From: an uncultured bacterium
GTDB taxonomy: Bacteria; Chloroflexota; Anaerolineae; J036; Brachytrichaceae
Direction of reading: 5' to 3'
DNA length: 64,000 bases
Assembly: GCA_903921365.1 (NCBI GenBank)
Contig: CAIXPS010000101.1
Location: 1 to 64,000, forward strand
The position numbers and the translations under genes are program-made. Positions 7,213 to 30,282 of the stretch are shown piece after piece (within the stretch, counting starts at the first letter, position 1; each line of letters opens with the position of its first letter). The notes under the pieces are model-generated. The model worked only from the letters and a program-made list of their open reading frames with translations. It was not told the origin of the DNA and ran no database searches.

Positions 7213-7680
7213 TTATGGCGCGACAGTGAATTCGCCGCGCATTTTCAGGGTGTAGTGAGCCGCCTTGTTACAGAAGTAGATGTAGTGACCGGCATCAAGT
7301 TTTGCCGTCATCTCACCACCTTTACCCGGCTCAACGTCTTCAACAGACCCCACCTTGGTGTAGTCCTTGGAATTCTCATCAACTTCAGTGCCATCGCTGG
7401 ACATAGGCAATTTGTCGAGCGCAAGATCGGTCTTGACCAGTAGTATCTCGTGCTGGAGATCTGTGGCGTCGTTCTTCACAATGAACTTCACTTCTCCTGG
7501 CTTGATCTTGTCCCCTGTGAACTTAAATCCATAGGTTGTCAAACTGACGTTGACAACCTGTGGCGGCGCCGCGGTCGGGGTCGCCGCCGGCGCCGTGCTG
7601 CAGCCCACCATAGACGCTGCGATAAATGAAGTCGCAATGATTGCTTTGAGTCCCTTTGGGAAGGTCTTAACACTTTTCAT
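7213..7680 (-). CDS. Exported blue-copper (cupredoxin-like) lipoprotein
   Basis: 155 residues from the ATG at 7680, which has AGGAGA 9 bases upstream; the frame is open further but without a better start. A hydrophobic leader ends in SMVGC (Cys27), a slightly atypical lipobox, so it is probably a lipoprotein. A Pro/Ala linker precedes the cupredoxin fold. His77 (LQHEI), Cys137, His142 and Met147 (YFCNKAAHYTLKM) are spaced as type-1 copper ligands, so it should bind copper and carry electrons. It is the last gene of the exported array and a natural electron partner for the multicopper-oxidase-like proteins upstream, though that link is inferred. Codons 7-13 overlap a dispersed repeat copy. Confidence 0.85.
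   Translation of the reverse strand: MKSVKTFPKGLKAIIATSFIAASMVGCSTAPAATPTAAPPQVVNVSLTTYGFKFTGDKIKPGEVKFIVKNDATDLQHEILLVKTDLALDKLPMSSDGTEVDENSKDYTKVGSVEDVEPGKGGEMTAKLDAGHYIYFCNKAAHYTLKMRGEFTVAP
7641..7662 (+). repeat. Dispersed palindromic repeat, copy in the cupredoxin gene
   Basis: TTGCTTTGAGTCCCTTTGGG then AA; encodes FPKGLKA on the minus strand at the start of the signal peptide. Confidence 0.75.
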
Positions 7681-7781
7681 CACACATTTTCTCCTGTAAA
7701 CAACCAATCAAATTACCTGGTGTGCGCGCGTATGAATCACGCCACACTTTCGGCCCGTAAAAACCACCCGCTGAAATTCCG

Positions 7782-10343
7782 CTAGCGATAGGCACTGGGT
7801 ATCCATATAACGTGTAATAAACCCGGATTGGATTCAACCACCTGCACGGGAATGCTCCACTGGCTCGAACTGCCCACACGGTTGGAGTAAGCCGGGTTGT
7901 GCAGGGTGCTCGCGACGGTGACTGTAAGCGCTGAGCCGCCCAATAGCCCCGTATAGGTGAAGACGCCGCTCGCATCCGCCGTCACAGGAGACTGCCGCGT
8001 GATCGTTGTAAGGTCATCGTAGTAAACATCCACCTGCGACAGTGGATTGGCCGTCCCGGTCACGATGACCGTCACAAAGTGATCCAGGGTTGCCGCCCCA
8101 AGAATGACCGGCGTCTGCGCCCAGTTATTGGTATACGTGATGACATCGCCACCTTCAAGGATGCCGGCGCCCTGCATGCCGGTGAGCGCGCGTGGGAACG
8201 AATCGCGCACGATGACGCGTTGTGCCGCTGCGCTATCCGACGCCAGCAGAGTCACTTCGCACATGCCCTGGTCAGGGCAGTCGCCGTGGTTGGCATCTCC
8301 GCTGCCGCCGATCACGTCGCCGATGCGCGTGTCGCTCCCGGTCGGGTTAATGATGATCGGCCCATTCACGTAGCTCTTGTGCAGAATGGCGCCCGCGCCT
8401 GAGACGGTCAGGGTAGCACTGACCGGCGGCGAGAGCGTAAAGACAGTGGCGCTGAGCGGGTCTGGCCGGCTGTTGAGATAACCCAACCCCACGCCGCAGA
8501 TATCCACGTTGGCCCCGGCTGCCTCCACATCGACTAACGCTGCTGTGCCGCCAATATCAATGTTGCGCAGCGTGGCGCCCGTGCCAAGGCTGAAGATGAC
8601 AAACTGTCCGGTTGCGCGGATACTCACGAGCGGATTGGCAGGGCTTCCACAAGGCTGGTAGCGCTTCTGACCCACCGCCACGCCATCAGGCACAGACAGT
8701 GTGCTCGACACGTCAATCGTATCGACCGCCGGGTCAAGTTGCGCAAAGCTGACAACGTCGCCGTTGACCGCATTTGACAGCGCAAAGCGCAATGTGCCGG
8801 TCTTCGAGATCAGATCGCCGTCCGTGGCAAGATCGCCAGTGCCAGTCACATACCAGGTGGCATTGGGCGCGCCAGTCGTCGTTGGCGGCAGAGTATTGAG
8901 AAGGCTGTTATAGGCGGACAGGACATTCAATCGCCCTGCGCCAAATGCATTGTCCGGGCCAGGCGTCCCCATATCCACGCTGGTTGAGATCAGCACGCTC
9001 CGCTGCAGATCAACGGTAAGCGTTGGGAATGCGCTCAACAGCAATGCGAGTGAGCCAGCCACATGCGGCGCAGCCAGGGATGTGCCAGTCGAGCTGACAT
9101 ACATACCATATAGATCAGTGGATCGGATAGCGACGCCAGGAGCGACGATATCGGGATACGTGGTTGAAGGCTCACCGCAAGCAGATGGGCCGCGGCTGCT
9201 ATATGCGTAGAGCTGATTCGTGTTATTGATTGCGCCGACAGCGAGCGCCTCAGGGTAGTTCGCCGGGCTGACACTGGTGTTATTCCCCGGGCCGTTGTTC
9301 CCCGCTGCAAAGATCGGCAGGATGCCCACGGCTGTCAATGCCTGCAAGTCTTGTTGAAATTCAAGATTGCACCCGACCGAGCCATACGCCCAGGAGTTAT
9401 TCACGACCTGCGGCGCATCCGGCGTATTCGGATCGCCGTCCGGATCCAGCAACCATTGGTAGCTCTGATGAATTGCTGAAGTCGTTGCGCCACCCGCATC
9501 GTTAAATATCTTGGCGGCGATCCACTTGGCCTGGGGCGCCACACCGACTGCTATGCCTCCGGCGTCCCCGCCAACCATCACGCCCATCGTCCATGTGCCA
9601 TGACCGCTGGCATCAAACGGGAGTGTGGGATGCTGACCGTAGGGGTCGAACCAACTGTTGGCGCCGCCGCGCCATCTGCCCGCCAGATCGGGGTGGGTCA
9701 CGTCTACGCCGGTGTCCAGGTTCGCGACGACAACCCCTTGCCCAAAATATCCCATACTCCACAACGCTGGCGCGTTGATGAGCGTCAGGTTGGGCGAAGG
9801 CGGATTGGATGCCGCTGCAGAAACCGACTCTGCGACCGGCACGATCGAAATCTCATCGGGCGTGATACTGAACACATCAGGATGTGCAGCCAGTTCCCGG
9901 ATCACATCGGGCGTGGCGGTTACCGCGAGGCCATTGAACACCCAGAATGGCAGGATGCGGCTGACGCGCCCCTGGGATCGTCGTGTCTCGAGCAAGGCGC
10001 GCAATCCTCTTTGAGTGATGCTGGCATGGTCACGCAAGGCGGTGATCACACCCCGCTGGCGTTCTGCGCGGCTGCGCCCTTTGACGGCCCCGACATCCGC
10101 TTGTTGCGCAAGCGTGACGATTACGGTTGTCATCGCCGCCGGTTGCATGCCAGCCAGGATCGTCTGGACTTGCGGATCAAGTTTCGGGCTGTATAGGGTC
10201 ACCGGCGACTGCTTTGAGTCCCTTTGGGAATGAGTTGCCTGCACGGTCGGCGGAGGGTGCTCCACTTTCCTGGCGCCGAAGAGCGCCACAACCGTGATAA
10301 CCGCCAGACCCAGGTTCGTTATTTTCTTCACGGGACTCGACAA
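7782..10343 (-). CDS. Secreted subtilisin-like serine protease (peptidase S8)
   Basis: 853 residues. An N-terminal hydrophobic segment (about 8-23) is the export signal, followed by an I9-like propeptide region (about 70-165). The catalytic domain carries the triad: Asp210 in VANLDTGVD, His248 in DASGHGTWTMG and Ser422 in STGTSLAAPHVAG, with the oxyanion Asn in FAAGNNGPG. This is bacillopeptidase F-like order. From about residue 480 onward is a beta-rich region with Ig-like segments. The protein ends in HVIWIPSAYR, similar to the tails of other exported proteins here. It overlaps no neighbour (10 bp after the membrane protein gene) and may process the large surface proteins; that role is inferred. 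Residues 39-46 are encoded by a dispersed repeat. Confidence 0.92.
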   Translation of the reverse strand: MSSPVKKITNLGLAVITVVALFGARKVEHPPPTVQATHSQRDSKQSPVTLYSPKLDPQVQTILAGMQPAAMTTVIVTLAQQADVGAVKGRSRAERQRGVITALRDHASITQRGLRALLETRRSQGRVSRILPFWVFNGLAVTATPDVIRELAAHPDVFSITPDEISIVPVAESVSAAASNPPSPNLTLINAPALWSMGYFGQGVVVANLDTGVDVTHPDLAGRWRGGANSWFDPYGQHPTLPFDASGHGTWTMGVMVGGDAGGIAVGVAPQAKWIAAKIFNDAGGATTSAIHQSYQWLLDPDGDPNTPDAPQVVNNSWAYGSVGCNLEFQQDLQALTAVGILPIFAAGNNGPGNNTSVSPANYPEALAVGAINNTNQLYAYSSRGPSACGEPSTTYPDIVAPGVAIRSTDLYGMYVSSTGTSLAAPHVAGSLALLLSAFPTLTVDLQRSVLISTSVDMGTPGPDNAFGAGRLNVLSAYNSLLNTLPPTTTGAPNATWYVTGTGDLATDGDLISKTGTLRFALSNAVNGDVVSFAQLDPAVDTIDVSSTLSVPDGVAVGQKRYQPCGSPANPLVSIRATGQFVIFSLGTGATLRNIDIGGTAALVDVEAAGANVDICGVGLGYLNSRPDPLSATVFTLSPPVSATLTVSGAGAILHKSYVNGPIIINPTGSDTRIGDVIGGSGDANHGDCPDQGMCEVTLLASDSAAAQRVIVRDSFPRALTGMQGAGILEGGDVITYTNNWAQTPVILGAATLDHFVTVIVTGTANPLSQVDVYYDDLTTITRQSPVTADASGVFTYTGLLGGSALTVTVASTLHNPAYSNRVGSSSQWSIPVQVVESNPGLLHVIWIPSAYR
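10207..10230 (+). repeat. Dispersed palindromic repeat, copy in the protease gene
   Basis: GACTGCTTTGAGTCCCTTTG followed by GGAA; encodes SQRDSKQS on the minus strand just after the protease signal segment. Confidence 0.8.
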
Positions 10344-10353
10344 AACGCGCCAG

Positions 10354-11253
10354 TTACTGCGCCAGGATATTCTCTGTGCGCAAATTGCCGAAGATCACAC
10401 TGACGGGCGTGCCGGGTCGGATAATGCCTTGTGAATTGGGGAAGAACATGACGTATTGCACGCCCTGTTTCAGCTTTCCGTGAGAATGCATGCGCGGCGC
10501 AAGAATCAGGGATTGGTTATTTACAAGCAATGCCGCATGGTTATCAAGAAGCAAGTGCGCTTTTTCAGGGTCGTCAATTTTGACGCGCACGTCGATGATG
10601 CTGTCCATCGCCGTAAGCCCGACCAGAGTTACCCGCACGCCATACTGCGCTTCCAACTCATTGAAAGTAGTCGCCCGTGTCTTGATCAGGTCAGCAACGG
10701 GCGGGACCATTCCCGGCACAGAAGCGATTGTAGAAGCCTCAGTAACGGCAGCATCCCATATTGACGCTGAGTAACCCACCGCAACGGCGACAAGTATAGC
10801 CAAAACAGGTGGGATCAGGCGCCGCCAGCTAGACGCGACAGGTGGGTTGGCATCAACACCGAGTCTCCAGGGTCGTAGTAGCGCCAGCACGATAAACAGG
10901 ACTTCTGCAGTGACGGCAATCACACCATAAGGCGTGAACCACTCCTGAACGTTCATCGCGGGCATGCCCAGGGTCCTGCTCCAGAGGTAACCTGCCATCG
11001 AGGCAACGGCAATGAGCAGCCCCAGCAACCACCCCCAGACCACCCGGTGATAAATCACATAAGCGGCAACCAGTGCGCCCACGAAGTTGGCCACAAACAA
11101 ATACCCTATATAGGGTGCCTGTGTGTACTCGATCTGCGCAGCTAGCACATGCTGCAACCCGATGACAAGAATCAACACAACGGCAAACCAATGAAGGCCG
11201 CGTGCCTTCATTTGACTGCTTTGTTTATCGATACCAGGTTCTACTATTGCCAT
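10354..11253 (-). CDS. Polytopic membrane protein with an unrecognised C-terminal domain shared with its neighbour
   Basis: 299 residues. About five hydrophobic helices (roughly residues 20-40, 48-68, 72-92, 108-127, 152-172) are followed by an exposed C-terminal domain. That domain (YGVRVTLVGLTAMDSIIDVR near its start, RPGTPVSVIFGNLRTENILA at its end) lines up with the C-terminal domain of the next protein. A later start at Met15 is possible. No family was recognised. It lies 17 bp after its paralogue and 10 bp before the protease, clearly one transcription unit. It could be a membrane anchor or assembly factor for the exported copper proteins, but the sequence does not show a function. Confidence 0.75.
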   Translation of the reverse strand: MAIVEPGIDKQSSQMKARGLHWFAVVLILVIGLQHVLAAQIEYTQAPYIGYLFVANFVGALVAAYVIYHRVVWGWLLGLLIAVASMAGYLWSRTLGMPAMNVQEWFTPYGVIAVTAEVLFIVLALLRPWRLGVDANPPVASSWRRLIPPVLAILVAVAVGYSASIWDAAVTEASTIASVPGMVPPVADLIKTRATTFNELEAQYGVRVTLVGLTAMDSIIDVRVKIDDPEKAHLLLDNHAALLVNNQSLILAPRMHSHGKLKQGVQYVMFFPNSQGIIRPGTPVSVIFGNLRTENILAQ

Positions 11254-11270
11254 TCCAGCTTTCCCAAGTT

Positions 11271-11789
11271 CTATTGCGCGGCAACGGCTTCAACCAGCGT
11301 GTCGCCAAACAGAAGAGAGACCGGGGTTCCCAGCTTAATGGCGCTCCCGCCATTCGGAAACAGAATATAAAAATTGCTGTCGTTAACATAGCGGAATTCG
11401 CCTACCCGCGCATCTTCAGGGACACTGAGTGTCACGCCACGGTCGGCAACATACAGCGCCGGGTAGTTCTTGGCATCCTGTAGCAGCGCTTTGGCTTTCA
11501 CCGCGTCGACCATTTTCAAGCGCACGTCGATCAATCCGCTTGCGGCAGTCAGCGAAATCAGAGTGATGCGCAGCCCATATTTCTGCTCCAGCATGCTTTG
11601 TGAGATTGGCGGCGCCGATGGGGCGACATTGGCGCTCCGGGATGGATTCAGGCCGCGAATCACAAAAAAGGCCGCCACAGCTACGCCTATCACCACGACA
11701 ATGATCATGACAACGATCACCGGGGCGAAAGGCTTGAATGTGCGCGATTGAGGACTGGTTCCTGAAGGATTCAAAGGCAATAAATTCAT
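11271..11789 (-). CDS. Single-pass membrane protein, paralogue of the following gene
   Basis: 172 residues from the ATG at 11789. An upstream ATG at 11825 would put the start inside the terminator-like hairpin at 11814-11848, so the shorter form is preferred. One membrane helix (about 24-45) follows a short N-terminus, then a Pro/Ala linker and a domain with YGLRITLISLTAASGLIDVR and KLGTPVSLLFGDTLVEAVAA. Both blocks match the neighbouring 299-residue protein. This looks like a minimal version of that protein: one helix plus the shared domain. Family and function unknown. Part of the N-terminus (PLNPSGTS) is encoded by a diverged copy of the dispersed repeat. Confidence 0.7.
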   Translation of the reverse strand: MNLLPLNPSGTSPQSRTFKPFAPVIVVMIIVVVIGVAVAAFFVIRGLNPSRSANVAPSAPPISQSMLEQKYGLRITLISLTAASGLIDVRLKMVDAVKAKALLQDAKNYPALYVADRGVTLSVPEDARVGEFRYVNDSNFYILFPNGGSAIKLGTPVSLLFGDTLVEAVAAQ

Positions 11790-11813
11790 TTGCAGGTGTT
11801 CTATCTCTAAACG

Positions 11814-11848
11814 GCAGAAAGCCACTCAGGTCTTGAGTGGCTTTCTGC
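11814..11848 (-). terminator. Terminator-like perfect hairpin
   Basis: Perfect 15-bp inverted repeat GCAGAAAGCCACTCA/TGAGTGGCTTTCTGC with a 5-base loop, 15 bp after the stop of the 1030-residue protein gene. The following T-run is short, so termination may be partial, separating the copper-oxidase half of the array from the membrane protein/protease half. Confidence 0.7.
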
Positions 11849-11862
11849 GATGACTGTAGGAC

Positions 11863-14800
11863 TTAGTTTACCTCGACCATCGGGAGGAACACCGGACTCA
11901 TCGGCCCTCCCTCGTTTCCATTCACAACCAGCAGACCGGCCAGCGTCCGACGGGTCGATACAAAGGCATCAAACATCATCGAACCACTTGCGCCGGCTTG
12001 CAGACCAGCCGACGGGCCAAGCCGCACTGATTCAAGCGTATTAGCGCTCGTGTCCAGTGGGCCTAGTGTTCCGCCGGCAGGGATGGCCCCGTCAATCGAG
12101 AAACTGACGGATGCGGACGGGGCGGAGAACCAGGCAATCTCGAAGTAGTGTGTTGCGTTGGAGATGTTGAACCAGTTGGTGCTTGTCGCGCCACCCTGGC
12201 GCACGACAGAGTAGCGCGCCTGATATTGATTACCCGCTGTCTGGCGTCGCAACTGCACCTGGAAGATGGCGGTATTGAACGCGTTCAACCCGGAGAAGAT
12301 CGTCACACCGTTGGCGCTGTTGTTGTTGTTCAGCACAACGCTGTTCGGGCGGAAGTAGAAGCGCGCATGGTAGCTGGCTTCTGCATTCGGGGTGTTATCG
12401 ATCACCCAGACCGGTGTGCGCGTGGCGCCTGTGGCAACCGTTGCGCGCAGGCCAAATGCCGGAATGCCATCCAGCGAGGCCGTGGAGGTCACCAGCAGGT
12501 TTGTCCCGCTCGATCCGCTCCAGGCCGACCGATTGCCCGATGAGAAGCTATCCGCGAAGATCACGTTTGGCCACACGATGACAACAGATGTGGAGATCGT
12601 GGTGCTCCAGTTGCCCGCAGCATCCTTTGCCCGCAAGGTCACGGTGTGCGTGCCCGCCGCCCAGTCCAGGGCGACGAAGTTGATCACCGCGCTCAACCCT
12701 TCGGTGGAGCTGTTGAAAGCGCCATCTGTGGCCGACATCGGCGTCCCATTGTTGAGGCCAGGATCCGCGCCCTCAAACCACTCGCCGCCTCCGATGTTGC
12801 TGCCGCCTGTGCCTGCATCGGTCGCCGTAGCCGTCAGTGTAAAGACAGAACTGTTACCCGTGTTGTTGTTGGTCGGGTTGGGGCTGACAGCCGCGCCGCT
12901 GATGACCGGGCTGGTCTTGTCGATCACAAAGGAGATGCCAGTGGCTGTAGCCCAGTTGCCCGCGGAATCCCTGGCGTGCACATACAGAGTGTGTGTCCCC
13001 ACGCTCAGAGAATTGATCGTCAACAGCGGGATGTCGGCATACGCATTTTCCATCGCAGTGTCGAATACGCCGTCGCTGGGGACGAAGATAAATCCTTGAC
13101 CGTTGATGCCAACGGCGTCGATAAAGCCTTCACCTGCGCTGATCAAGGAGAGTGCGTCGCTGAATGTGGCCGACAGGCGAACCACCATATCGCTGGAATC
13201 GACGGGGTAAAGCCCGTTATTCGGATTCGGCGACGCGATGACGTTCAATGCTGCCGGGCCAGTAAGGTCCACGATCAGCGTCGCCGTCGCGGGCATGCCC
13301 CAGTTGTTCAGTGAATCCTGGCTGGTAACGACAACCGTATGGGCGCCCTCAGTGAGTGAAATCACCGTTGCTGCCGGAATAATAGCCGCCAGACTGGCGA
13401 CCGGCGCTGCCGTGTTAACAGTCATCGTCGCCTGCGCGCCACCGTCAATAGCATATACCGCGGCGGAGATTATGGAACCACCGTGGATCAGGTCGCTAGC
13501 CGTCCCGCTCAACGACACGTCCGCCGTGCCATTTGTCGGGTTAGGCATAAGCACCAGCGCTGACGTATCAGGGCCAGCCTTGTCCAGATTCAGTGTAATG
13601 AAGTTAAACGGCCCCCAGTTGGCAGCGGCATCTGATCCGCGCACAAAGAGGGTGTGGTTGCCGGCAGAAAGCGTCGCCAGGCTTGCCACGCTGATGGTGA
13701 CCTGAACGGTTTCAGTCGGTGAATCAAACGCCCCATCCAGTGCAGACAGCGGCGTTGGGACGCCAGATACATTGTCAATGTAGTACTCGGCAGATTGGAC
13801 ATTTGATCCGCCGGTGGCAAAGTCGCCAACCGTCGCAGTTAAGCCAATGTCTGAATTCCCGTCAGTGGGATTCGCCGTCAATGCCACATTGGATGTGCCT
13901 GGGCCAGTCACGTCGCCAGCAACGCCAGCAGTTCCCACGGCCAGGAATGTGAGCATCCCGCCAAAACCGCTGTCGGTATTGTTGTGCAGCATGAGGTTGG
14001 CGTCGTACAAAGCATAGCGCGCGCCAGCCACTGCGGTCGCAGGAATCACCACGATGCGGTCGGATGTTTCGCCTGGCGCCATAGTCTCTGCGACGACAGT
14101 GTGGGTTATTGGAAATGCGTTGCCATCCACAGCAACCAGCGTCTGAAGAACGCCCAGAGCGGTGATCGAGTACGGCTGGAGGCCGGAATTGACGTACCGC
14201 AGGAGCACCCTGTGACCTGCCACTGTCGGAATGGAAGCCGTAGCAGGGTAGACATTCCCGTTGATGGTATAGAACTTGGGCGCGTAGTCGCGCATGTCAA
14301 ACGCTGCCGGCGTCAGGCTGGTGTTCAGCGCCGGGTCGATGTCGCCCAGCACCATCACCGCTTCATCATCATACGCGGTTGAAACCGTGCCATATGCAGT
14401 GCCCGCCGCTGCCGGACGCACGACGAGCGCGCCAGACAACCCCATGGCGATCTGATACTCCGTGTTGGGCAACAGACCGGACTCATACAGGAACGTGCCT
14501 GCGGACGAGGCCGTAAATGTGTACGTCTTAGTGCCGCCAGGGCCCACACCTTTCTGATCGGTCGGCATCGCCTGACCCGTGAACAGTAACGAGGTCGAGA
14601 ACGGGAGGCTATTGTGTAATCTCACCACCTCGACATCGCCCTGGGTGGCAAACAGCGTGACGCCGCCTGGCTTCGTTAAGGCGGGGCCGCCTGTGCAGGT
14701 TCCAGTGGTATACCCGTAAACCGTTACCAGCCCGACATATCCGGGCAAGGTGATTTGCGCACTGGTTGCGCATATATCCCTCGTAACCACGGCGGTGGTA

Positions 14801-14955
14801 ACACGGGGGGCGTTTGTGGTCACAACATCCGCCGCCAGAGATGTAGTCGGGGTCGGAATAGACAGCGCAGCCACGGCCACGATGCTAAGCGTCCGTAAAG
14901 CCGTCTGAAATATCTTTTTCATTGCTTTTGAATCCTTTAGGATGGTTTTCCTCAT
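11863..14955 (-). CDS. Secreted cupredoxin-fold protein with Ig-like and LamG-like domains; copper ligands lost
   Basis: 1030 residues. A signal peptide is present whether translation starts at 14955 or at the internal ATG 14922 (MKKIFQTALR). Residues about 40-345 align with the two multicopper-oxidase-like proteins encoded just upstream: ALTKPGGVTLFATQGDVEVV, GTFLYESGLLP...MGLSGALVVRP, FYTINGNVYPAT and LRYVNSGLQPYSITALG. At the positions of copper ligands it has FTGQ instead of HWHG and YESG instead of YHCH, so it should not bind a catalytic copper cluster. Several Ig-like repeats follow (about 355-790; units ending in the SAGNHTLFVRGSDAAANWG type), then a LamG-like jelly roll (800-1000). 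It ends in PVFLPMVEVN. A structural or adhesive partner of the oxidases is the simplest reading. Confidence 0.8.
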   Translation of the reverse strand: MRKTILKDSKAMKKIFQTALRTLSIVAVAALSIPTPTTSLAADVVTTNAPRVTTAVVTRDICATSAQITLPGYVGLVTVYGYTTGTCTGGPALTKPGGVTLFATQGDVEVVRLHNSLPFSTSLLFTGQAMPTDQKGVGPGGTKTYTFTASSAGTFLYESGLLPNTEYQIAMGLSGALVVRPAAAGTAYGTVSTAYDDEAVMVLGDIDPALNTSLTPAAFDMRDYAPKFYTINGNVYPATASIPTVAGHRVLLRYVNSGLQPYSITALGVLQTLVAVDGNAFPITHTVVAETMAPGETSDRIVVIPATAVAGARYALYDANLMLHNNTDSGFGGMLTFLAVGTAGVAGDVTGPGTSNVALTANPTDGNSDIGLTATVGDFATGGSNVQSAEYYIDNVSGVPTPLSALDGAFDSPTETVQVTISVASLATLSAGNHTLFVRGSDAAANWGPFNFITLNLDKAGPDTSALVLMPNPTNGTADVSLSGTASDLIHGGSIISAAVYAIDGGAQATMTVNTAAPVASLAAIIPAATVISLTEGAHTVVVTSQDSLNNWGMPATATLIVDLTGPAALNVIASPNPNNGLYPVDSSDMVVRLSATFSDALSLISAGEGFIDAVGINGQGFIFVPSDGVFDTAMENAYADIPLLTINSLSVGTHTLYVHARDSAGNWATATGISFVIDKTSPVISGAAVSPNPTNNNTGNSSVFTLTATATDAGTGGSNIGGGEWFEGADPGLNNGTPMSATDGAFNSSTEGLSAVINFVALDWAAGTHTVTLRAKDAAGNWSTTISTSVVIVWPNVIFADSFSSGNRSAWSGSSGTNLLVTSTASLDGIPAFGLRATVATGATRTPVWVIDNTPNAEASYHARFYFRPNSVVLNNNNSANGVTIFSGLNAFNTAIFQVQLRRQTAGNQYQARYSVVRQGGATSTNWFNISNATHYFEIAWFSAPSASVSFSIDGAIPAGGTLGPLDTSANTLESVRLGPSAGLQAGASGSMMFDAFVSTRRTLAGLLVVNGNEGGPMSPVFLPMVEVN

Positions 14956-14968
14956 CTCTCCGGCGGCA

Positions 14969-16261
14969 TTACGGACAATTGTTAGGTAGCGGCGGATCGA
15001 TTCGCAAGTAGGTGATCTGGCCTGCCATCGTCATACCCCACGCATCGAGTTGGAACAGCGCGTGGTTGTGTGAAATGATGTAGTACTCACCGCACTGGTT
15101 CAGGCTTGACGTGCCGGGCGGCAAAGTTCCCTTCACACCCAGATACGGGCTGCCGCTGTAGAACATGCCGGTGGTCATGTTGCTGATGTCAGGAACGGTG
15201 ACGGGGATGGGATTAGCCATGCTGTAGTTCTCCGCGTCATACCACTGCATGAGAACATCCCAGGTCTGCCCCGGCCCGATATTAATCGCGTACTTCTCGA
15301 AGGACATATCCTGACCGGCCGGCCCTGCAACAGGTTGACCGTCGCGTCCAATCACCACCCCGTTATGACCGTGCGGATGGTGTGAGTACTCTTCCGAGCC
15401 CGCGTTGATGTAACGCGCCAGGCCGGGATAAGGATGCGCTGTGGCATCATATGGATGGATGCGGGCCAGAGAACCATACGGCTGGCTGGGCAGGCGCGTG
15501 GCGAAATTGTCAGCGATCGTATCGGGGAAGGTGCGCCCGTTGAGCAACCAGTAATGCACATGATAGGTTGTCAGGTCAAAGGGCAGGTTCTGCTCAGCCG
15601 CGCTGTGCTGGTAGGGGTCGATTTCGGTCAGGAAGACCAGGAACTCTTCCTCCGGCGTGAACCTGCTGTCCGCGCGGTTGTAGGCGAAGTTTGCGCCACT
15701 GGTTGGCCGCACGATCAGGGCGCCGGACAGACCCATGCGCGCCTGCTTCTCAGGATTCGTGCCGGACTGGTAAAGATAGGTGCCGGGGTTGCTGGCGACG
15801 AAGCTATAAGTCATGCTGCCGCCGTTGGCAGGCGCCACGTTCGTCAGCGAGGTCGCTTTCCCCGTGCCGTCAAATTGCGGTTGGGCCGGGGCGCCATTGG
15901 CCAGGACATTGGTCTGACCAGGGAAGATGATGGAAGAATCCTCCGACAGTGTATTGTGGAAGATCACCGTGACCGTGTCGCCCTGGTTCACGCACAGCAC
16001 CGGACCGGGGTACTGGAACGGCTGGCCGCCGACCGAGTAGCTCCACATGAAGACGGTATTGCCATCCGAGATGGTGATGATACCGGTCTTGGCATCCACC
16101 GTAAAGGTAGGGCCATAGGTGCACGCGAGGCCGATCGCCGGCGCTGTTGCGGCAGCAACGCGCTGCGCGCCAGTCTGTGCGCCAAGGGACAGTCCCCCTA
16201 CGCTGAGCGCCAGCAGCAGCACGATTCCCAGCCGCAACGATTTGAATCCTGAAGGTTGCAT
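14969..16261 (-). CDS. Secreted multicopper-oxidase-like protein with domain-3 copper motif only
   Basis: 430 residues with a signal peptide (about 1-37); AAGGAG lies 7 bases before the ATG. It aligns over its whole length with the 452-residue protein upstream: PGPVLCVNQGDTVTVIFHNT, NPGTYLYQSGTNP...MGLSGALIVRP, YWLLNGRTFPDTIADN, ARYINAGSEEYSHHPHGHN. The first-domain ligand motifs are replaced (FPGQ for HWHG, YQSG for YHCH), but residues 294-299 (HHPHGH) resemble the HPxHxHG motif of the last cupredoxin domain of multicopper oxidases; the 452-residue protein lacks it there. CGEYYIISHNHALFQLDAWG near the end adds further His residues. It may need its paralogue to form a complete copper cluster; this is inference. 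Confidence 0.82.
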   Translation of the reverse strand: MQPSGFKSLRLGIVLLLALSVGGLSLGAQTGAQRVAAATAPAIGLACTYGPTFTVDAKTGIITISDGNTVFMWSYSVGGQPFQYPGPVLCVNQGDTVTVIFHNTLSEDSSIIFPGQTNVLANGAPAQPQFDGTGKATSLTNVAPANGGSMTYSFVASNPGTYLYQSGTNPEKQARMGLSGALIVRPTSGANFAYNRADSRFTPEEEFLVFLTEIDPYQHSAAEQNLPFDLTTYHVHYWLLNGRTFPDTIADNFATRLPSQPYGSLARIHPYDATAHPYPGLARYINAGSEEYSHHPHGHNGVVIGRDGQPVAGPAGQDMSFEKYAINIGPGQTWDVLMQWYDAENYSMANPIPVTVPDISNMTTGMFYSGSPYLGVKGTLPPGTSSLNQCGEYYIISHNHALFQLDAWGMTMAGQITYLRIDPPLPNNCP

Positions 16262-16294
16262 TAATAACTCCTTTTCACGCCTGAACAGATCAGC

Positions 16295-17653
16295 CTACAT
16301 ACCCCAGTCATTGGGATACTGTTGTGCCGCCACGCCGCTTGGGTAAACACGCACCTCAGTTGCCTGACCGCCAAAGCCCCCGGCGCTCAGGTTAGACACC
16401 TGAGTCAGCCGGCGGTTATAAACCATATAGGTGTCGTAACCATGGCCGCTGCTGCCGCTGCCACCGGTATAAGCAGGGGCGGTGAAGATAGCGTCAAAAC
16501 TCTCGCCCGCGCTAGCCAGAACCGTATTCGTGACATAGCTGGTATCTGTGCCGTCGCGACCGCGCATCAACGTCGCATCGCGACCGACGATGCGCATCTT
16601 GATCCCCGCCAGCGTCATCGCTGCTTCGCGGAAACCCAGGTTGATGAAACGCAGCAACACGCGCTCGCCAGGCTTGCAGGTGATCAATGAGGACAACGGC
16701 TGGTACTGGAGTTGGGGATATCCTACCGGGGCGACCAATTCGCCATTCGCATCGCGCTGCACGGAGTGCGCGTTGATGGAGGTCGCGGCGTTGATCGGTG
16801 AATTTGGCGCGATCGTATCAGGATATACGCGCCCATTGAGCAAGCTGAAGTCGGCGTGATAGTCGCTCCAGTCAGGCAACTGGATATGCGAGTCGCACCA
16901 GTGCGCCTCTGCCCAGACCTCGCTCATAAACATGACAAACTCGCGATCGTGACCCGTAGAACCATCGCCGTCGTTATAGACATACTTGCCGCTGGGGTAC
17001 AGCGCCGTGTTGCCATTCTGCAACGGACGGATGAAAACCGGGCCGGTCATGCCCATGTGCACATGCTCAACATCTTCAACATGACAGTGGTACATGTACG
17101 TGCCAGGGTCGCGCGGGCGATAGACATAGGTAAAGTCACGCCCGATGGGGACTGAGATCGAACCCGTCGGCTCGCCGTCAAAGAAAGGGATGACGTTGCG
17201 AAAACCGTGCCAGTGCAAGGTATGCGAGTCCACCAGGTCGGGGCGTTGCCCCAGACCCAGGTTGGTCAATTGGACTCTAAAGTCCTTTGGATGCGCGGGA
17301 TCATACTGATTTGCCCAGAACAACGGCGCGTTGTGCTGCGCATGATTCTTCTGATTGTTTTTCTGCACAGTCGTCAGGCCGGTCACGTTGCGAAAGCCGA
17401 AGATGTACGTGTTGAACGGCGCCGGAGCATAGTCATCCGGGAAATAGAATCCGACCGGCGGGTCTGGCGGCAGGTATATCCACCCATCCGTGCCTGCCCA
17501 GTACAGGTCCGGCGCGGGGGTCTGCGCCTCTACCACCTCATCGGGCGCGAGCGCCTTGCGCACGAAGGGGGGCAAGACACCCACTCCGGCCGCGATCACA
17601 GCTGCGCCGCCTGCCAGTTTGAGAAAATCTCGTCGGGAAATGTGCTTTTTCAT
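16295..17653 (-). CDS. Tat-exported multicopper oxidase with domain-1 copper motifs
   Basis: 452 residues. The N-terminus is a twin-arginine signal (SRRDFLKLAGG, residues 6-16), as expected for a cofactor loaded before export; AGGAGAAG precedes the ATG. Copper motifs are HWHG (147-150) and YHCHVEDVEHVHMGM (178-192), the latter able to supply both trinuclear and type-1 ligands. The corresponding late-domain HPxHxHG motif is missing: RFINLGFREAAMTLAGIKMR stands where the 430-residue paralogue has HHPHGH. Usual three-domain enzymes carry both in one chain. It lies 28 bp after the giant surface protein gene and 33 bp before the 430-residue paralogue. Substrate unknown; metal oxidation or matrix cross-linking are possibilities. 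Confidence 0.88.
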   Translation of the reverse strand: MKKHISRRDFLKLAGGAAVIAAGVGVLPPFVRKALAPDEVVEAQTPAPDLYWAGTDGWIYLPPDPPVGFYFPDDYAPAPFNTYIFGFRNVTGLTTVQKNNQKNHAQHNAPLFWANQYDPAHPKDFRVQLTNLGLGQRPDLVDSHTLHWHGFRNVIPFFDGEPTGSISVPIGRDFTYVYRPRDPGTYMYHCHVEDVEHVHMGMTGPVFIRPLQNGNTALYPSGKYVYNDGDGSTGHDREFVMFMSEVWAEAHWCDSHIQLPDWSDYHADFSLLNGRVYPDTIAPNSPINAATSINAHSVQRDANGELVAPVGYPQLQYQPLSSLITCKPGERVLLRFINLGFREAAMTLAGIKMRIVGRDATLMRGRDGTDTSYVTNTVLASAGESFDAIFTAPAYTGGSGSSGHGYDTYMVYNRRLTQVSNLSAGGFGGQATEVRVYPSGVAAQQYPNDWGM

Positions 17654-17681
17654 CTCTTCTCCTGTTCAGTGCCTGATGCTG

Positions 17682-20600: not shown

Positions 20601-23600
20601 GATAATCGAGCCGGGCACAGGGGGCGTCGTATCAGAATACACACCGCCGGGGCCAACGCCTTGCAACTTGATAGGGGCATTGATGATCAGGTTCTCGTAG
20701 TACGCGCCGCGACCGTTGTAGCGTGGATTCGTCAGGTCCGGCGCACCAGGGTAAACCACGACCAGAGCATCACCAGGGCTTGCAACCGCCGCATCAATTG
20801 CGTTCTGAATCACGGTATATGTCTGGCTTGGGCCAACCTCGTAGACAGTAGGCTGGTAACCAATCACCGACACCGTTCCAACGCGGAAGTTGTCAACACG
20901 GGCGCCGGTTGGAAGCTGTATGCCAAGCCGGCCGCCGCCTGTGAAGGTAGTCGCAGCCGAGTGGCCCACAATCGAGGTGACGTTGGCTGCGCTTGACTTG
21001 CGCACATCGACTGAGCCGTCAGCGTTTGCAATAGCTGTCAACGTATCGCGCGTTGCAAAGGTCACTGGGAAAGCATTGACCTGCGCGTAGTTGATCCCGG
21101 CGTTGTCGGTCGTTTCAACAATGACCCGATTGGGGCCGGTCGCATAGCGCACACGGATATAGTTGGTTGGCGCAGCGGCTGTGCCGCCGCTTGCCTTTAA
21201 GATGAGGCTGGAACCATTTACGGGCGCAGCAGGGGCGCCCGCAGTCTGTGTAAAGGTAAATGAGGCGCCCTGCACCGACCCGTAAACATTGGTCGGGCCG
21301 TTCCATATCGCCAGACCACTTGCGACTGCCCTAGCCTGGTTGCCGTTCAATTGGATGAAGGCCGACCCGAGCAGAATCGTCTGGCTCCAGTTCGTGCCGA
21401 GCGTAGTCGCATTCACACGGTTAAAGTCATCCAGCACCGGGCTGAGCGAGAACGGTGTATCACCGATGACGTGGTAGGTCAACCCATTGATCGTGACAAG
21501 ACCAGCGTTGGTCCGGACGGTCAACTGTTGTGCGCCGCGCGCGGTGGTCGATGGGACCATGACCTGGATCACGCGATCGCTCCACGACTGGACTTGCAAG
21601 GGCAAATTGCCCAGCAACACCTGTCCGGCGGCGGCGCCGAAGCCAATTCCGGTGATCGTGAACGTGGCATTCACGGCGGTATTGCGGAAGTCCGCGTACG
21701 GCTTGGATACCGCGAAGAGCTGCGGCACAAAGTCTGACAGTTTGCAGCTTGGGGAGTAATTGAACTGGCCGCCAGGCAACTGGGCGAGCGTGCGCACCTG
21801 CGTTGGCGCGTTGTCCGCAGGGATCAGCAAGCCAGGCAGTGTCTCGAACTCGGTCGCGATGGTGCGGAATTGCGGATTGTAGTTCGCATTCAGCCGGCCT
21901 GGGATGCCGGGATCGTTACCGACGAAACGATACAGGTTGGCGCATACACCAGATGGCGTCGGGCAGCTGATGCGGTTCGACGACGGCAGAAGCACATCGT
22001 ACAAGCCGCTGTAATCGGTCTCAACAGTGGTGATCAGCCGGTTCTCAAAATCATAGATACCGACGGGAGCGAAAGGCACGCCAGCTTTTTCGCCAAAGTC
22101 CAGCGACTTTGGATCTGTCGAATAGTTGAGGTCGTCAACGAGCAACCCCCACAGACGCGCTGGCTGCTGGATATCGGTGAACAAGTTAAAGTTGGGTGCA
22201 ACAGATCGGCCATTGCTGACAGTGACCAGCTTGGTGGTGCACAGCGGTCGCGGCTGACCCTCATAATAGGTTCCGACGGCGGCGACATAATCCGGATTAT
22301 GTACGGGTGTTGAGGATGTGACAACGATGCCGTTCGTCAGGGTTATTGGGCCATAGTTATCTGTGCCGAAGCCTTCAAGGTCCACTGTGTGCAGCGGCCC
22401 GACGCATTCGGGCGGTGGAATCTGCGGGATAAACTGGTCGCCAGTAAAGATGTTGATATCCTCTTCTTTGGTGACCTTATACTGAGGTTTGCCGACGGCA
22501 TCCTTAGGAATATTCACTTCGACGAGGTAATCAGCAGGCGTCAATTCCTGGAAAGTACCGCCAACACAAACTGGTTTCGAGGGATCCGTAGCATCGAGTG
22601 TCCCTGTATAACAGGCGCTCCCAAAGCTATAGTTGCCATCGACAGTCGAATATCCCGACTGGAATTGCACACCCATCAATGGCGCTTCGAGGCAGTCGGT
22701 GGGCGACTTTGTGACCTGCTGCCCAGCTGGATAAGCCAACGGCGCATTATTGACGTCACGAGGAATGCAATTGCCGTCCCCATTGACATTGTGATTGAAG
22801 CCCGGCCGGCGCCAGGTTTCGGACACATACGTATTGAGTAGCTTTCCCTTGGCAAGCGAACCATCTTTGGCGAGTTCGTAGCGACCAGTCGCGTCGCATG
22901 GAGTTCCTGCGTTCGTGCCACAGGCAACGGGTGGATATAGGCTCACAGTCACGTTTGGAATACCTGGCTGCCAGACTTCAACTACTGCGTAACGCGGATC
23001 ATATTCGTTGCGGGTGGTGTCAAAACTGACCGTACCGACAATTCCACCGTTGCGCGGATCAACCCCACCGCTTTTTCCATCCGCGTCATAAGGGTGCACG
23101 CCCCAGTCCAGGCGGCCGCCCAGACCAATGACGGGCAGGAAACTCACGTCTACACCTCTGCCCAGAATCGTTGTAGGCGAGGGTTGGTTGTCCGCCTGCC
23201 ATGTCACGCCAGTGGTGTAATAAGCATCGGTATAGGCCTCTTCCACCAGCCATTGCGTGAGCGGATAGGCATTCTCCATATAGTAGTAGCCACTCTGGTC
23301 GGTGAAGACAGTCGTGGCGCCGCGATCGCTCAACGAGTTATCGCGCTTCTTAACCGCTATAGGATAATGCGCAACGCCTTTCTCGCCTGGGTCCATGATT
23401 CCGTTGCGGTTGTCATCCTGGAATACATAACCCTCAAGGGTAGTCCACCAACCTGTAGTGGAGAGCAGACCCAGGTTTACCGCCTCGCCGTTGTGAACTG
23501 AAAGATTCTTGGTCTGAATAATATAGTTCTGTGGTTCGTCCCAGTAGGTCAATGTGTAATCGCCATCCGGAACATTCGGGATGGTGAACGAGCCATCGGC

Positions 23601-24914
23601 GTTGCCATGGACAACGTAGAGTGTTGTGTCGCCTTGCTGCAGATCGCTCAATGCAAGCCAGGGCTTGACAATTGGCTTAAATGGGCGCGCGCCAAGAATG
23701 CCAGGATCGACCAGGAGACCGCCGCTTGGCGGGACATAAAGCTTATACGCCTCGACGATGCCGGAGATCGAACCAGTTGTAGGGGCAGCGGTAAGACCGG
23801 GGTTCTTCCATACATTGCCAATAACCGGAGCTGGCACAAACCCGAAGATGATCGCAGGATATGGTTCGCCGGCGACAACAAACTCAGTATCGTAACCGGT
23901 CGCGCCTTCCATCACCCAGGCATCCCAGTCATGGTTGCCTTCGAGCGTGGTCGTTTGAATCCAATGCGAGCCATCCGGCGCTGTGGCCGATAATCCATAG
24001 CGGTTTGGGCCAACATGTGGGATCACCAGGTCGCCATTTACGTCGCTCAAGCATTTTCCACCCATCACTGCAATAACAGGCAATTGGTTCGCGTCGAGGA
24101 AGGTGTTCGAGATCACATGCGTCACCGGATCCTCGCCCACGTACTTGGTGCAGAGCGGGTGACCATAGATATCATTCGTCACTTCGCCAATATAGTCCTG
24201 GATATGCCCCTGGAAACCTGCCAGTCCCACTTCAGCGGGCTCATCCGGAGCGCCGTTTGTGGGAGAAACATCCGCAAACACTCTTGCGCGGATGGTGGCA
24301 TCCGGCACTGGATGCGGCTGCAACTCTACTGTGAGCAAACCAGGCGATTCCAATGGAATGCTGAAGTGCTTGCCATCAAGCTTGTAACCATCAGAACTAA
24401 CCGATATCAGATAACGCCCAGGCGGAAGTGTCAAACCGGCAGCAAAGTCATTTTGGTCGCCCTGGGTATAGATAGGGGCTGTTGAGCGCGCGCCGGCAAC
24501 CGATACCCAGTTGCATGAATCAGGATATCCTGCATCTTCCGGTGAGCATCCCGTCCCTGGCGCAGGACTACGCTGTCCGGTTGTTGCGGTATTGTCGATA
24601 TTAATAAGATACTTAAACGTGGTGATCGCGGCGCCTGCCGTCACACCTGTTCCTCCAAATGCGCGCGGTTCGGTGCGCGCACTCTGCACAGCCAGTTGAA
24701 TGGTGCTGGTGGGAGTATGAATCACTGGCGTAGTTTCAGTAACGAGCGCCGATAGGCCAGCCATAATAAGGGGAAGGAATACATGGATGCCGCCAATTCC
24801 CGGGTTCGGGCTAACGGTCACGGGCGCCGCGGTCACATTCAAGGAAGATGCACCCACGATAAACACCGTGACGACACTCATTACAGCCCTAAGCGCGCGT
24901 CTTCTCAATAACAT
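17682..24914 (-). CDS. Giant secreted multidomain surface protein (SdrD-like B, TIG, beta-helix, DUF11, jelly rolls)
   Basis: 2410 residues with a signal peptide (about 1-30) and GAGGAG 7 bases before the ATG. Near the N-terminus is IHVFLPLIMAG. Residues about 480-555 form an SdrD B-like repeat (EGYVFQDDNRNGIMDPGEKG). About 1075-1155 is an IPT/TIG domain, and 1161-1348 a jelly-roll unit (LDDFNRVNATTLGTNWSQ) that recurs at 2218-2408 (LDTFNRVNQNSLGASWSQ). Between them lie a right-handed parallel beta-helix (about 1358-1940, NNxI/NNRI rungs) and two DUF11 repeats (about 1950-2205). No cell-wall sorting motif is visible. It is first in the array that encodes the copper oxidases, so it may be a scaffold or the substrate for them. 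Confidence 0.88.
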   Translation of the reverse strand: MLLRRRALRAVMSVVTVFIVGASSLNVTAAPVTVSPNPGIGGIHVFLPLIMAGLSALVTETTPVIHTPTSTIQLAVQSARTEPRAFGGTGVTAGAAITTFKYLINIDNTATTGQRSPAPGTGCSPEDAGYPDSCNWVSVAGARSTAPIYTQGDQNDFAAGLTLPPGRYLISVSSDGYKLDGKHFSIPLESPGLLTVELQPHPVPDATIRARVFADVSPTNGAPDEPAEVGLAGFQGHIQDYIGEVTNDIYGHPLCTKYVGEDPVTHVISNTFLDANQLPVIAVMGGKCLSDVNGDLVIPHVGPNRYGLSATAPDGSHWIQTTTLEGNHDWDAWVMEGATGYDTEFVVAGEPYPAIIFGFVPAPVIGNVWKNPGLTAAPTTGSISGIVEAYKLYVPPSGGLLVDPGILGARPFKPIVKPWLALSDLQQGDTTLYVVHGNADGSFTIPNVPDGDYTLTYWDEPQNYIIQTKNLSVHNGEAVNLGLLSTTGWWTTLEGYVFQDDNRNGIMDPGEKGVAHYPIAVKKRDNSLSDRGATTVFTDQSGYYYMENAYPLTQWLVEEAYTDAYYTTGVTWQADNQPSPTTILGRGVDVSFLPVIGLGGRLDWGVHPYDADGKSGGVDPRNGGIVGTVSFDTTRNEYDPRYAVVEVWQPGIPNVTVSLYPPVACGTNAGTPCDATGRYELAKDGSLAKGKLLNTYVSETWRRPGFNHNVNGDGNCIPRDVNNAPLAYPAGQQVTKSPTDCLEAPLMGVQFQSGYSTVDGNYSFGSACYTGTLDATDPSKPVCVGGTFQELTPADYLVEVNIPKDAVGKPQYKVTKEEDINIFTGDQFIPQIPPPECVGPLHTVDLEGFGTDNYGPITLTNGIVVTSSTPVHNPDYVAAVGTYYEGQPRPLCTTKLVTVSNGRSVAPNFNLFTDIQQPARLWGLLVDDLNYSTDPKSLDFGEKAGVPFAPVGIYDFENRLITTVETDYSGLYDVLLPSSNRISCPTPSGVCANLYRFVGNDPGIPGRLNANYNPQFRTIATEFETLPGLLIPADNAPTQVRTLAQLPGGQFNYSPSCKLSDFVPQLFAVSKPYADFRNTAVNATFTITGIGFGAAAGQVLLGNLPLQVQSWSDRVIQVMVPSTTARGAQQLTVRTNAGLVTINGLTYHVIGDTPFSLSPVLDDFNRVNATTLGTNWSQTILLGSAFIQLNGNQARAVASGLAIWNGPTNVYGSVQGASFTFTQTAGAPAAPVNGSSLILKASGGTAAAPTNYIRVRYATGPNRVIVETTDNAGINYAQVNAFPVTFATRDTLTAIANADGSVDVRKSSAANVTSIVGHSAATTFTGGGRLGIQLPTGARVDNFRVGTVSVIGYQPTVYEVGPSQTYTVIQNAIDAAVASPGDALVVVYPGAPDLTNPRYNGRGAYYENLIINAPIKLQGVGPGGVYSDTTPPVPGSIIDGSAFGGDSDLATAWYARIGPMIWVGNQTVSDGQVIYLLAQNETQYTAAFNAAIDGFDIRNGDQQGQANTLNQGGAIFANAYIHNLQITNNTIQGNSSSYGSIRIGTPDLVEPDTNQHNENLRIVNNRIFANSGTNLAGAVGIYAGTDGYEVAHNDICGNFSAEYGGGLTAYGLSPNGKIHDNRVYFNQSYDEGGGIMVSGQLPASIVTVINPPPVCETTNPDDPNCIPVIITPTLSPGAGPVDIYNNLIQSNLGNDDGGGLRFLMAGNFQYNVYNNIIVNNISTHEGGGIALNDSPNVRIYNNTIMKNLTTATAVTSNGSPAPAGLSTSGNSTMLQATLPAGSPLFSKPLLFNDIFWDNRAGTRGLGVVTGLGAISDTTPINHWDLGVADGAGVLAPTYSIIQVGDGVGVATNITADPLVSSTYDISVAFAPWRNNINYVGAIMVTVDLPPDLLADYHLVGSASPAYNTGVASVAVPAYQQPLANLAAPAFDIDRDSRPAFGAFDIGADEVPALADLAISKTDGRTVVTPGTQITYTIIVTNSSIYNINGVGVTDDFPATLSGVTWTCTATAGSSCIVASGSVNISRTVNLLAGGRATFIARATVAPSAFDAVENIAVVAAPVGFTDRNTVNNTATDIDSIPTADLAISVTDNKAIVLPGSVVTYTVLVTNIGPDAVVGASMNDSFPSSLTVSRWICSVAPGSSCATGGTGNNRTGTVALPAGATATYTAVTTLSALATGTLVDTANVTPQVTPSVIDPYPGNNTATDTDLIAKALPALTVLDTFNRVNQNSLGASWSQALLIGLGAIQVNTNQASAVLAGQAIWNSAVAPGATFGLHQGTAFTFTQSAGSPAAPLSDSSLLLKVTNGVGTTTSPASFIRVRYSAGQVIVETTTDGNTLAATYTPIGTFTATYATGDRLTAVANADGSVDVWQNATYLGLTATSSFTTTGRIGIQLPAGARIDDFRGATLP

Positions 24915-25142: not shown

Positions 25143-25760
25143 TCACGGTTCCTGTTGGAGCACGTAACGAATGATTTCAGAATTCGAGCGCCACACCATC
25201 TTCTGCATGATGCGCCTCCGATAGGTGCTCACGGTCTTTACGCTTAAAGAGAGCAGCTTGGCAATCTCGGTCACCGTATTGCCATCTCCGATCATCCGCA
25301 TCACCTCATGCTCGCGTTCCGACAGCACGGTGTGGGGATGTTGATCGTAAGAATCGGCGCTGATGGATTCTGCCAGCGTAGGGCTGGAGTACTTGCGATG
25401 ACCCGCCACATGACGGATCGCCTCAACAATCTGCTCCGGCGCGCTGTCCTTGGGCAGGTAACCCGCCGCGCCCGCTTTCAGCACGCGTAAGGCATACTGC
25501 CTCTCGGGGTGCATACTGAACACGAGCACAGCCATATTCGGGTAAAGCTCTTTGACAGGCTTCAGAATATCAAAGCCACTGCGCCCGGGCATGTTGATAT
25601 CCAGAATCAACACATCGCAGTTTGCCGTCAGCAGCTTGCTCAACGTCTGTTGAGCATCCCCTGCCTCAGCCGCAACCATAATATCGCCCGCTTCAGAGAA
25701 TATCTGCTTTAGCCCCTGCCGCACAACCGCGTGATCATCCGCCACAACAACCTTTATCAT
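25143..25760 (-). CDS. NarL/FixJ-family response regulator
   Basis: 205 residues. Residues 1-120 are a receiver domain: acidic VVADDHAVVRQG, phospho-acceptor Asp in DVLILDINMPG (about residue 54), and the conserved Lys in YLPKDS. Residues 140-203 are a LuxR-type helix-turn-helix: LSEREHEVMRMIGDGNTVTEIAKLLSLSVKTVSTYRRRIMQK. It is divergent from the sensor kinase gene at 26121 and lies immediately upstream of the giant surface protein gene in the same direction, so it is the best local candidate to control the exported array. Partner kinase not proven; both nearby kinases are of the matching HisKA_3 class. Confidence 0.93.
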   Translation of the reverse strand: MIKVVVADDHAVVRQGLKQIFSEAGDIMVAAEAGDAQQTLSKLLTANCDVLILDINMPGRSGFDILKPVKELYPNMAVLVFSMHPERQYALRVLKAGAAGYLPKDSAPEQIVEAIRHVAGHRKYSSPTLAESISADSYDQHPHTVLSEREHEVMRMIGDGNTVTEIAKLLSLSVKTVSTYRRRIMQKMVWRSNSEIIRYVLQQEP

Positions 25761-26120
25761 CTGTGTTCATCCCATAGGCAGGTGGACTTCACGCTAAACA
25801 ACGACTCTTTTACATCTACAAATACAAACATTTACAAACATTAAACCCATTACACTCTACAAAGCACACCGTACAAAGTGCAACAAATGGAGCACAGCAA
25901 AACAAACAGAAGTGGCGGGAGGACATGACAGACCTCAGTCTGGAGCCATGTTCAATGTCAATTCTAAACATAACCTGCCAGGCTGTCATGAGTAAAATGA
26001 ACCATGTGTGTTGCCACAAAATAGTCATGATGATCTACAACGGCGTAAAACTTAGCGCGACATCGACGGGTGAGTCAGCATCGTCAATGTTATGTAGACA
26101 CGTTATGTAGATATTGACTT
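25761..26120. promoter_or_regulatory. Divergent intergenic region with repeated TACAAA and GTTATGTAGA motifs
   Basis: This 360-bp A/T-rich gap separates the divergent response regulator and sensor kinase genes and holds no gene. Five copies of TACAAA occur at 25817, 25823, 25833, 25858 and 25872. Two exact direct repeats of GTTATGTAGA lie at 26089-26098 and 26102-26111, just before the kinase start. They look like regulator-binding repeats, but no protein can be assigned. Confidence 0.4.
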
Positions 26121-30213: not shown

Positions 30214-30251
30214 AGGCTGATTTCGTCGGCGCACATACAACATAACTCGAT

Positions 30252-30282
30252 ATGACTGGCGCACATACAGTGCGCCAGTCAT
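30252..30282 (+). terminator. Terminator-like hairpin after the GH39-like gene
   Basis: Perfect 13-bp stem ATGACTGGCGCAC/GTGCGCCAGTCAT with a 5-base loop, about 40 bp after the stop codon. There is no T-run, so it may be a weak terminator or a transcript-stabilising structure. Confidence 0.6.

Follow-up and report, generated by a model that had tools for sequence, protein, structure and literature searches.

A conserved bacterial gene array that probably encodes a multicopper oxidase with its active site divided between two proteins

We analyzed a 64,000-nucleotide (nt) stretch of DNA (hereafter, the window; positions 1 to 64,000 of contig CAIXPS010000101.1, assembly GCA_903921365.1) from an uncultured bacterium of the Brachytrichaceae (Chloroflexota; Anaerolineae), in which eight minus-strand genes encode a giant surface protein, three cupredoxin paralogs, two small membrane proteins, a subtilisin-like protease and a blue-copper lipoprotein. 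We propose that the three paralogs, named C7 (the next gene after the giant in transcription order), C6 and C5 (Table 1), probably constitute one extracellular heteromeric multicopper oxidase beside the giant surface protein, with an active site lying between two gene products. The initial annotation had read the array as a single extracellular copper machine; the array is indeed conserved, while the plurality of oxidases and the membership of the lipoprotein in that machine did not stand.

The distribution of copper ligands among the paralogs carries this proposal. The signature of a multicopper oxidase, eight histidines in four HxH motifs together with the Cys-His-His-Met set of the type 1 (T1) copper, was found only in C7 and C6 jointly. 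In alignment with solved two-domain oxidases, domain 1 of C7 presents HTLHWHG, which matches HTIHWHG of 2zwn and 3g5w, and HCH...H...M, which matches the same motif of 3g5w; between them these motifs contribute the T1 ligands H144, C190, H197 and M202 and the cluster histidines H147, H149, H189 and H191. Domain 2 of C7 has lost its ligands, the histidines of the equivalent third motif being substituted. C6 is the mirror image of C7: its domain 1 is ligand-free, and its domain 2, which is without a T1 cysteine, bears HPH (H295 and H297), aligned with HAIHTHGH of 3g5w, and HNH (H398 and H400), by pattern the counterpart of the second-domain HxH in complete two-domain oxidases. Neither the trinuclear-cluster nor the T1 ligand set occurs in C5. 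The idea that the three paralogs are several independent oxidases is rejected, since no paralog holds the full ligand set; together they hold one set, divided between C7 and C6.

To place the array in other genomes, a profile built from six C6 proteins was used to search a bacterial and archaeal genome collection, and the 79 loci described here are the best of the 427 related stretches that it returned. The complementary ligands are invariant across them. Among alignment rows with residues at the position, C7 H144, H147 and H149 were kept in 79/79, and H189, C190, H191, H197 and M202 in 78–79 of 79, with HCH present in all rows except one; C6 H295 and H297 were kept in 82/82 rows, and H398 and H400 in 81/81. 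The cluster histidines were missing from C7 domain 2 and C6 domain 1 in every row. The split thus holds in essentially all of the ~80 loci, and also in Burkholderiaceae at ~30% identity. Related ordinary two-domain oxidases from other genomes of the phylum (L131 and L132) keep every site, with all four motifs, in a single chain, so that complementary ligand loss is a feature specific to the array. A partial single-chain two-domain oxidase at locus L041 (G051), in which T1 and cluster motifs occur together and are followed by several fibronectin-like repeats, falls near C6/C5 in the tree (89/90) and may be a relative that retains the whole site in one chain.

The conserved neighborhood on which the initial annotation had staked its case was found across phyla. 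Most of the 79 loci belong to Chloroflexota and Actinomycetota, with Methylobacter and single contigs of other groups making up the rest, and the order giant-C7-C6-C5 recurs in nearly all of them, whether or not the membrane protein and the subtilisin accompany it. The giant is the conserved first gene in 72 of the 79, C7 is present in 77, C5 in 76, the small membrane protein in 65 and the subtilisin in 37; C7 is absent from two loci only, and in both the contig ends immediately upstream of C6. Median gaps between giant and C7, C7 and C6, and C6 and C5 are 9–13 nt. Chance does not account for an array whose core order was recovered in 79 loci fetched independently. Its distribution is patchy: a close C6 (50–57% identity, same array order) was found in 3 of 99 genomes of host relatives, and a strong C7 match in 9/400 genomes of the phylum and in 7/399 genomes of an order centred on an Oxalobacteraceae metagenome-assembled genome. 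At three loci (L044, L049 and L062, binned as Oxalobacteraceae, Nocardioides and Deltaproteobacteria) C6 is 63–65% identical to that of the window, and these arrays represent either recent transfer or mis-binned contigs. Oscillochloris sp. ZM17-4 (L088; G332 contig C98) has the array as two tandem copies.

In Cupriavidus metallidurans CH34, whose open reading frames (ORFs) we called directly from sequence, and in Paraburkholderia, C5 and the giant are one protein of ~2700 aa, yet C7 and C6 stay separate in these two Burkholderiaceae. A fused C7-C6 protein, which would be a sign of contact, was sought in the fetched loci and none was seen, the fusions there being of C5 with the giant only. In the proteobacterial clusters L148–L150 the genes that come next encode the membrane protein, a subtilisin, a cytochrome-motif protein and a candidate SCO protein; a Pfam run on L149 assigned the last to SCO1/SenC and showed the cytochrome c to carry a periplasmic-binding domain, and a cytochrome of this kind was found in two clusters.

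The three paralogs share common descent. In a maximum-likelihood tree C7 and C6 each formed one clade, as did C5 save for a single very long-branched row (L118) that is regarded as a mis-called ORF. Methylobacter proteins nest with those of Chloroflexota in all three paralog groups, and the trio therefore appears to have been transferred together. The simplest reading of the tree and alignments is that one triplication was followed by division of the copper site and then by spread of the trio as a unit.

Structure prediction is consistent with a joint assembly. C7 and C6 of the window lie in the same frame with a single TAG between them, and we folded them with AlphaFold2 as a tethered chain in which the stop is read as glycine, a modelling device by which we do not suggest read-through. 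The tethered C7-C6 model reached a mean predicted local distance difference test score (pLDDT) of 86.4 and a predicted TM-score (pTM) of 0.86, its low-confidence stretches being mainly the signal peptide and the linker, and a tethered C7-C6-C5 model of locus L072 reached 82.5 and 0.84. Scores this high, obtained although disordered linkers join the chains, mean that the position of the subunits relative to one another is confidently predicted, but they do not tell which faces meet. Among the structures compared, the C7 part matched 3g5w best (3g5w_A: Z score 29.6, root-mean-square deviation (rmsd) 2.4 over 277 residues); the C5 part matched 3g5w (Z score 30.4) and the C6 part 3gdc_A (Z score 27.2). 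A Foldseek comparison of the trimer model with the three-domain laccase 2xu9 gave a target-normalised TM of 0.70, which we do not take as evidence on ligand geometry. Two-domain oxidases form trimers in which two protomers supply the residues of the trinuclear site (PMC13151041), and a triplicated two-domain ancestor that lost sites is the proposed origin of six-domain proteins (PMC3600357); a C7-C6-C5 ring with one retained site would fit both.

We propose the following mechanism. The core of the array would comprise the giant, C7, C6, C5 and the small membrane protein. C7, C6 and C5, as diverged copies of one two-domain, type-C-like multicopper oxidase, would assemble into a six-cupredoxin ring in the manner of the homotrimeric two-domain enzymes, retaining only one of the three inter-subunit sites. 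Domain 1 of C7 would supply the T1 copper and four histidines, domain 2 of C6 the other four cluster histidines, and C5 would serve as a copper-free structural subunit, while the giant, which is fused to C5 in some Proteobacteria, would connect the ring with the cell surface or a mineral. The reductant, by our best guess Fe(II) or Mn(II) and perhaps mineral-bound, would hand over electrons singly to the T1 copper of C7, from which they would reach the interfacial C7/C6 cluster and reduce O2 there to water. An O2-reducing oxidase is strongly implied by the alignments because the ligand set is complete; fold and packing are as predicted by AlphaFold2, whereas gene conservation, ligand invariance and the common descent of the paralogs are shown directly, and ring geometry, copper loading and activity are our inferences.

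The substrate is speculative. By analogy we give Fe(II) or Mn(II) oxidized at a surface about an even chance, because the proteins of an apparent relative in the iron oxidizer Sideroxydans lithotrophicus ES-1 reach higher levels on magnetite than with Fe(II)-citrate (excerpts of PMC12016527). The same split-site assembly might instead be a surface laccase acting on phenolics, humics or lignin-like compounds. That two-domain oxidases are commonly laccases (PMC13151041), that many hosts are soil Actinomycetota and that glycoside hydrolase genes lie nearby in the window all point this way, but the only expression result on an apparent relative was obtained with solid Fe(II) (excerpts of PMC12016527) and a surface or mineral target would suit the giant adhesin-like partner no less well, so we consider a laccase possible although unlikely. 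We think it distinctly improbable that the oxidase hardens a sheath or biofilm matrix by cross-linking surface proteins, the giant among them, a function in which the subtilisin would act as maturation protease. Giant and oxidase are co-encoded almost everywhere and the protease accompanies them in about half of the loci; however, a substrate motif was not identified, the protease is not universal, and a direct scaffold role accounts for the C5-giant fusion equally well. We thus favor Fe(II) or Mn(II) ahead of phenolics, and phenolics ahead of cross-linking, and all of these options share one enzyme model.

A different enzyme model would give the paralogs separate roles and no shared cluster, with C7 a one-electron blue-copper protein or homo-oligomer, C6 a metal binder and C5 a structural protein. 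Paralogs are able to diverge independently, and the assembly is a predicted one, but such divergence would leave unexplained both the confident packing in the tethered models and the two complementary four-histidine sets, invariant and one per protein in ~80 loci, and we regard it as less probable still than cross-linking. Copper nitrite reductases (NirK-like), whose structures are among the fold matches, are highly improbable and are rejected on ligands, as NirK would show a type 2 copper site without the type 3 histidines, whereas all eight trinuclear-site histidines are present between C7 and C6, and at the position of the C7 HCH the NirK-like proteins of this analysis have HCA or HCG.

Several points weigh against a joint, metal-oxidizing C7-C6-C5 oxidase. 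The tethered models translate a stop as glycine, and tethering by itself promotes contact. Sequential fold alignment to ceruloplasmin and MnxG gave a high rmsd and no rigid six-domain match, which may be due to a different domain order round the predicted ring. Kinship of the array with the ES-1 cluster rests on the published description, taken from excerpts, and on the Paraburkholderia occurrence, and the window itself holds nothing that points to a metal substrate.

ORF calls on the window bore out the layout of eight genes on one strand, with successive intergenic gaps of 28, 33, 13, 37, 17, 10 and 74 nt. Pfam placed Cu-oxidase domains in C7, C6 and C5, Peptidase_S8 and Inhibitor_I9 on the protease, and Copper-bind on the plastocyanin-type blue-copper protein. 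From a twin-arginine translocation (Tat) signal in C7, Sec-like N-termini, predicted membrane helices and the lipobox MVGC of the blue-copper protein, all eight products (rather than seven, as first estimated) look exported or membrane-bound.

Table 1. Features of the array and its immediate flanks in the window.
Feature	Coordinates	Strand	Basis and remarks
Giant surface protein, 2410 aa	17682..24914	-	ORF, Pfam; presumed scaffold or adhesin
C7, two-domain cupredoxin, Tat-exported	16295..17653	-	ORF, Pfam, motif alignment, fold match
C7 motif H144-T-L-H147-W-H149-G	17204..17224	-	Alignment; T1 His and first HxH of the cluster
C7 motif H189-C190-H191 ... H197 ... M202	17048..17089	-	Second HxH of the cluster and T1 Cys, His, Met
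C6, exported two-domain cupredoxin	14969..16261	-	ORF, Pfam, motif alignment, fold match
C6 motif H295-P-H297	15371..15379	-	Alignment; third HxH of the trinuclear cluster
C6 motif H398-N-H400	15062..15070	-	By pattern; fourth HxH of the trinuclear cluster
C5, exported two-domain cupredoxin with Big_13 Ig-like repeats	11863..14955	-	Pfam, alignment; proposed structural third subunit
Perfect 15-bp-stem hairpin	11814..11848	-	Sequence reading; 14 nt past (3' of) the C5 stop; possible terminator or processing point that would split the array
Small membrane-anchored protein, extracytoplasmic domain of no known family	11271..11789	-	Probable start ATG 11789 in place of the listed GTG
Second membrane protein, five predicted helices	10354..11253	-	C-terminal domain shared with the 11271..11789 protein
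Subtilisin-like serine protease (I9 propeptide and S8)	7782..10343	-	Pfam, triad motifs; accessory
Blue-copper lipoprotein (lipobox, H..C..H..M)	7213..7707	-	Pfam, motifs; probably a local addition
LuxR-type response regulator	25143..25760	-	Directly upstream of the array; candidate regulator, by position only
PAS/HisKA_3 histidine kinase	5207..6871	-	Directly downstream of the array; candidate regulator partner, by position only

The giant combines SdrD_B, polysaccharide-lyase fn3_3-like and DUF11 domains with a repeated C-terminal module, and a Beta_helix match below the Pfam threshold marks a weak beta-helix region. The hairpin beyond C5 was not listed by a terminator scan, which gave no more hits than shuffled sequence did. 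The GTG start (11825) listed for the 184-aa small membrane protein sits within this hairpin, so translation probably begins at the ATG given in Table 1. That protein, with one predicted membrane helix, has a C-terminal domain in common with its five-helix neighbor, as the initial annotation had recognized, and the domain has no Pfam match above cut-off, which makes it a candidate new domain. It is conserved in ~70 homologs, with a motif around GIRVTLVAVTADGGLVDLRY. Homologs of the small membrane protein also occur in several proteobacterial clusters; a second copy of the domain gene is present at only 7 loci.

The subtilisin has all of its triad motifs (DTG, HGT and GTSxAAPH) and was also detected in four proteobacterial clusters; being common and not universal, it is accessory rather than core. 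The blue-copper lipoprotein, once taken for the electron carrier of the machine, had no homolog detected in any fetched locus; it was dropped as a core part and is probably a local addition. An external electron carrier would not be needed, because the proposed oxidase would reduce O2 itself.

Genes on the same strand extend beyond the array on both sides, with the histidine kinase and the response regulator of Table 1. A divergent pair of a PAS/GAF histidine kinase and a response regulator follows on the plus strand (26121–28175 and 28156–28833), such that two-component genes occupy both flanks of the array (5207–6871 on one side, 25143–28833 on the other). A second very large ORF, this one on the plus strand (2117 aa, 30221–36574), ends in YGIYLPIALR, and similar hydrophobic-Pro tails occur in C5 (VFLPMVEVN) and the subtilisin (VIWIPSAYR); the common tail is perhaps a sorting or anchoring tag.

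The array resembles several known systems and differs from each. Like MofA/OmpB of the mof operon, it would encode an extracellular oxidase, and MofC-like genes (cytochrome with periplasmic-binding domain) and SCO1 adjoin proteobacterial copies of the array (excerpts of PMC5566968); MofA/OmpB is described as a single oxidase gene, whereas no mofA-like gene lies within the window array. The heterodimeric laccases of the fungus Pleurotus likewise have unlike subunits, but there all the coppers belong to the large subunit and the small subunit is no cupredoxin, while here the copper site itself is divided. Phrase searches of the open-access literature turned up no heteromeric bacterial multicopper oxidase.

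Our starting view that no described system has this set of genes was nearly right, the exception being an apparent proteobacterial relative in ES-1. Its cluster Slit_1812-1818 includes three adjacent cupredoxins, two with oxidase motifs and a larger one without, the latter with adhesin and polysaccharide-lyase-like domains, together with SCO1 and a cytochrome (excerpts of PMC12016527); it was first noticed as three tandem oxidases (excerpts of PMC5566968), and the excerpts of both articles leave the role of its cupredoxins unexplained. Similar clusters have been reported in Paraburkholderia, among other organisms (excerpts of PMC12016527), and the one in Paraburkholderia is a homolog of the array in the window. 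In the window, by comparison, the giant is separate and there is no SCO1 or cytochrome among the array genes, and the excerpted ES-1 descriptions mention neither a split active site nor a Chloroflexota or Actinomycetota form (PMC12016527, PMC5566968). The fold family is therefore known and the proteobacterial cluster had already been noticed; what the open-access literature searched does not describe is one trinuclear site split over two gene products, the retention of that split in several phyla, and the array as it occurs in Chloroflexota and Actinomycetota. If our proposal is true, it offers a clear hypothesis for the unexplained cupredoxins that rise in a magnetite-grown iron oxidizer, and searches that demand all four copper motifs in one protein overlook this oxidase in its hosts, Chloroflexota, Actinomycetota and Proteobacteria from soil, groundwater and sediment.

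The closest structural likeness is to type C two-domain oxidases such as the blue copper oxidase of Nitrosomonas europaea (3g5w), with which C7 shares the two-cupredoxin chain, the T1 copper site in the N-terminal domain and the ligand motifs. Type C enzymes are homotrimers with both trinuclear half-sites on one chain; here no chain has both, the half-sites being on two gene products and the third paralog having none. Ceruloplasmin, hephaestin and bacterial MnxG (MnxEFG complex, 9bxa) are alike in having six cupredoxin domains and at most one trinuclear site, but they are single polypeptides, whereas the six domains of the window array belong to three ORFs, and an in-frame stop separates C7 from C6. 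If the proposal holds, the array would represent gene triplication and loss of two of three sites without fusion, and would provide a natural test of the origin of six-domain oxidases such as ceruloplasmin from two-domain trimers. We tentatively extend it to a broader picture, to which we give somewhat less than an even chance: a multi-phylum oxidase whose trinuclear site lies obligately between two gene products, in which a copper-free third paralog closes the ring and links it to a giant adhesin, which oxidizes metals in solid minerals, and which would be the unfused living counterpart of the proposed ancestor of ceruloplasmin and MnxG.

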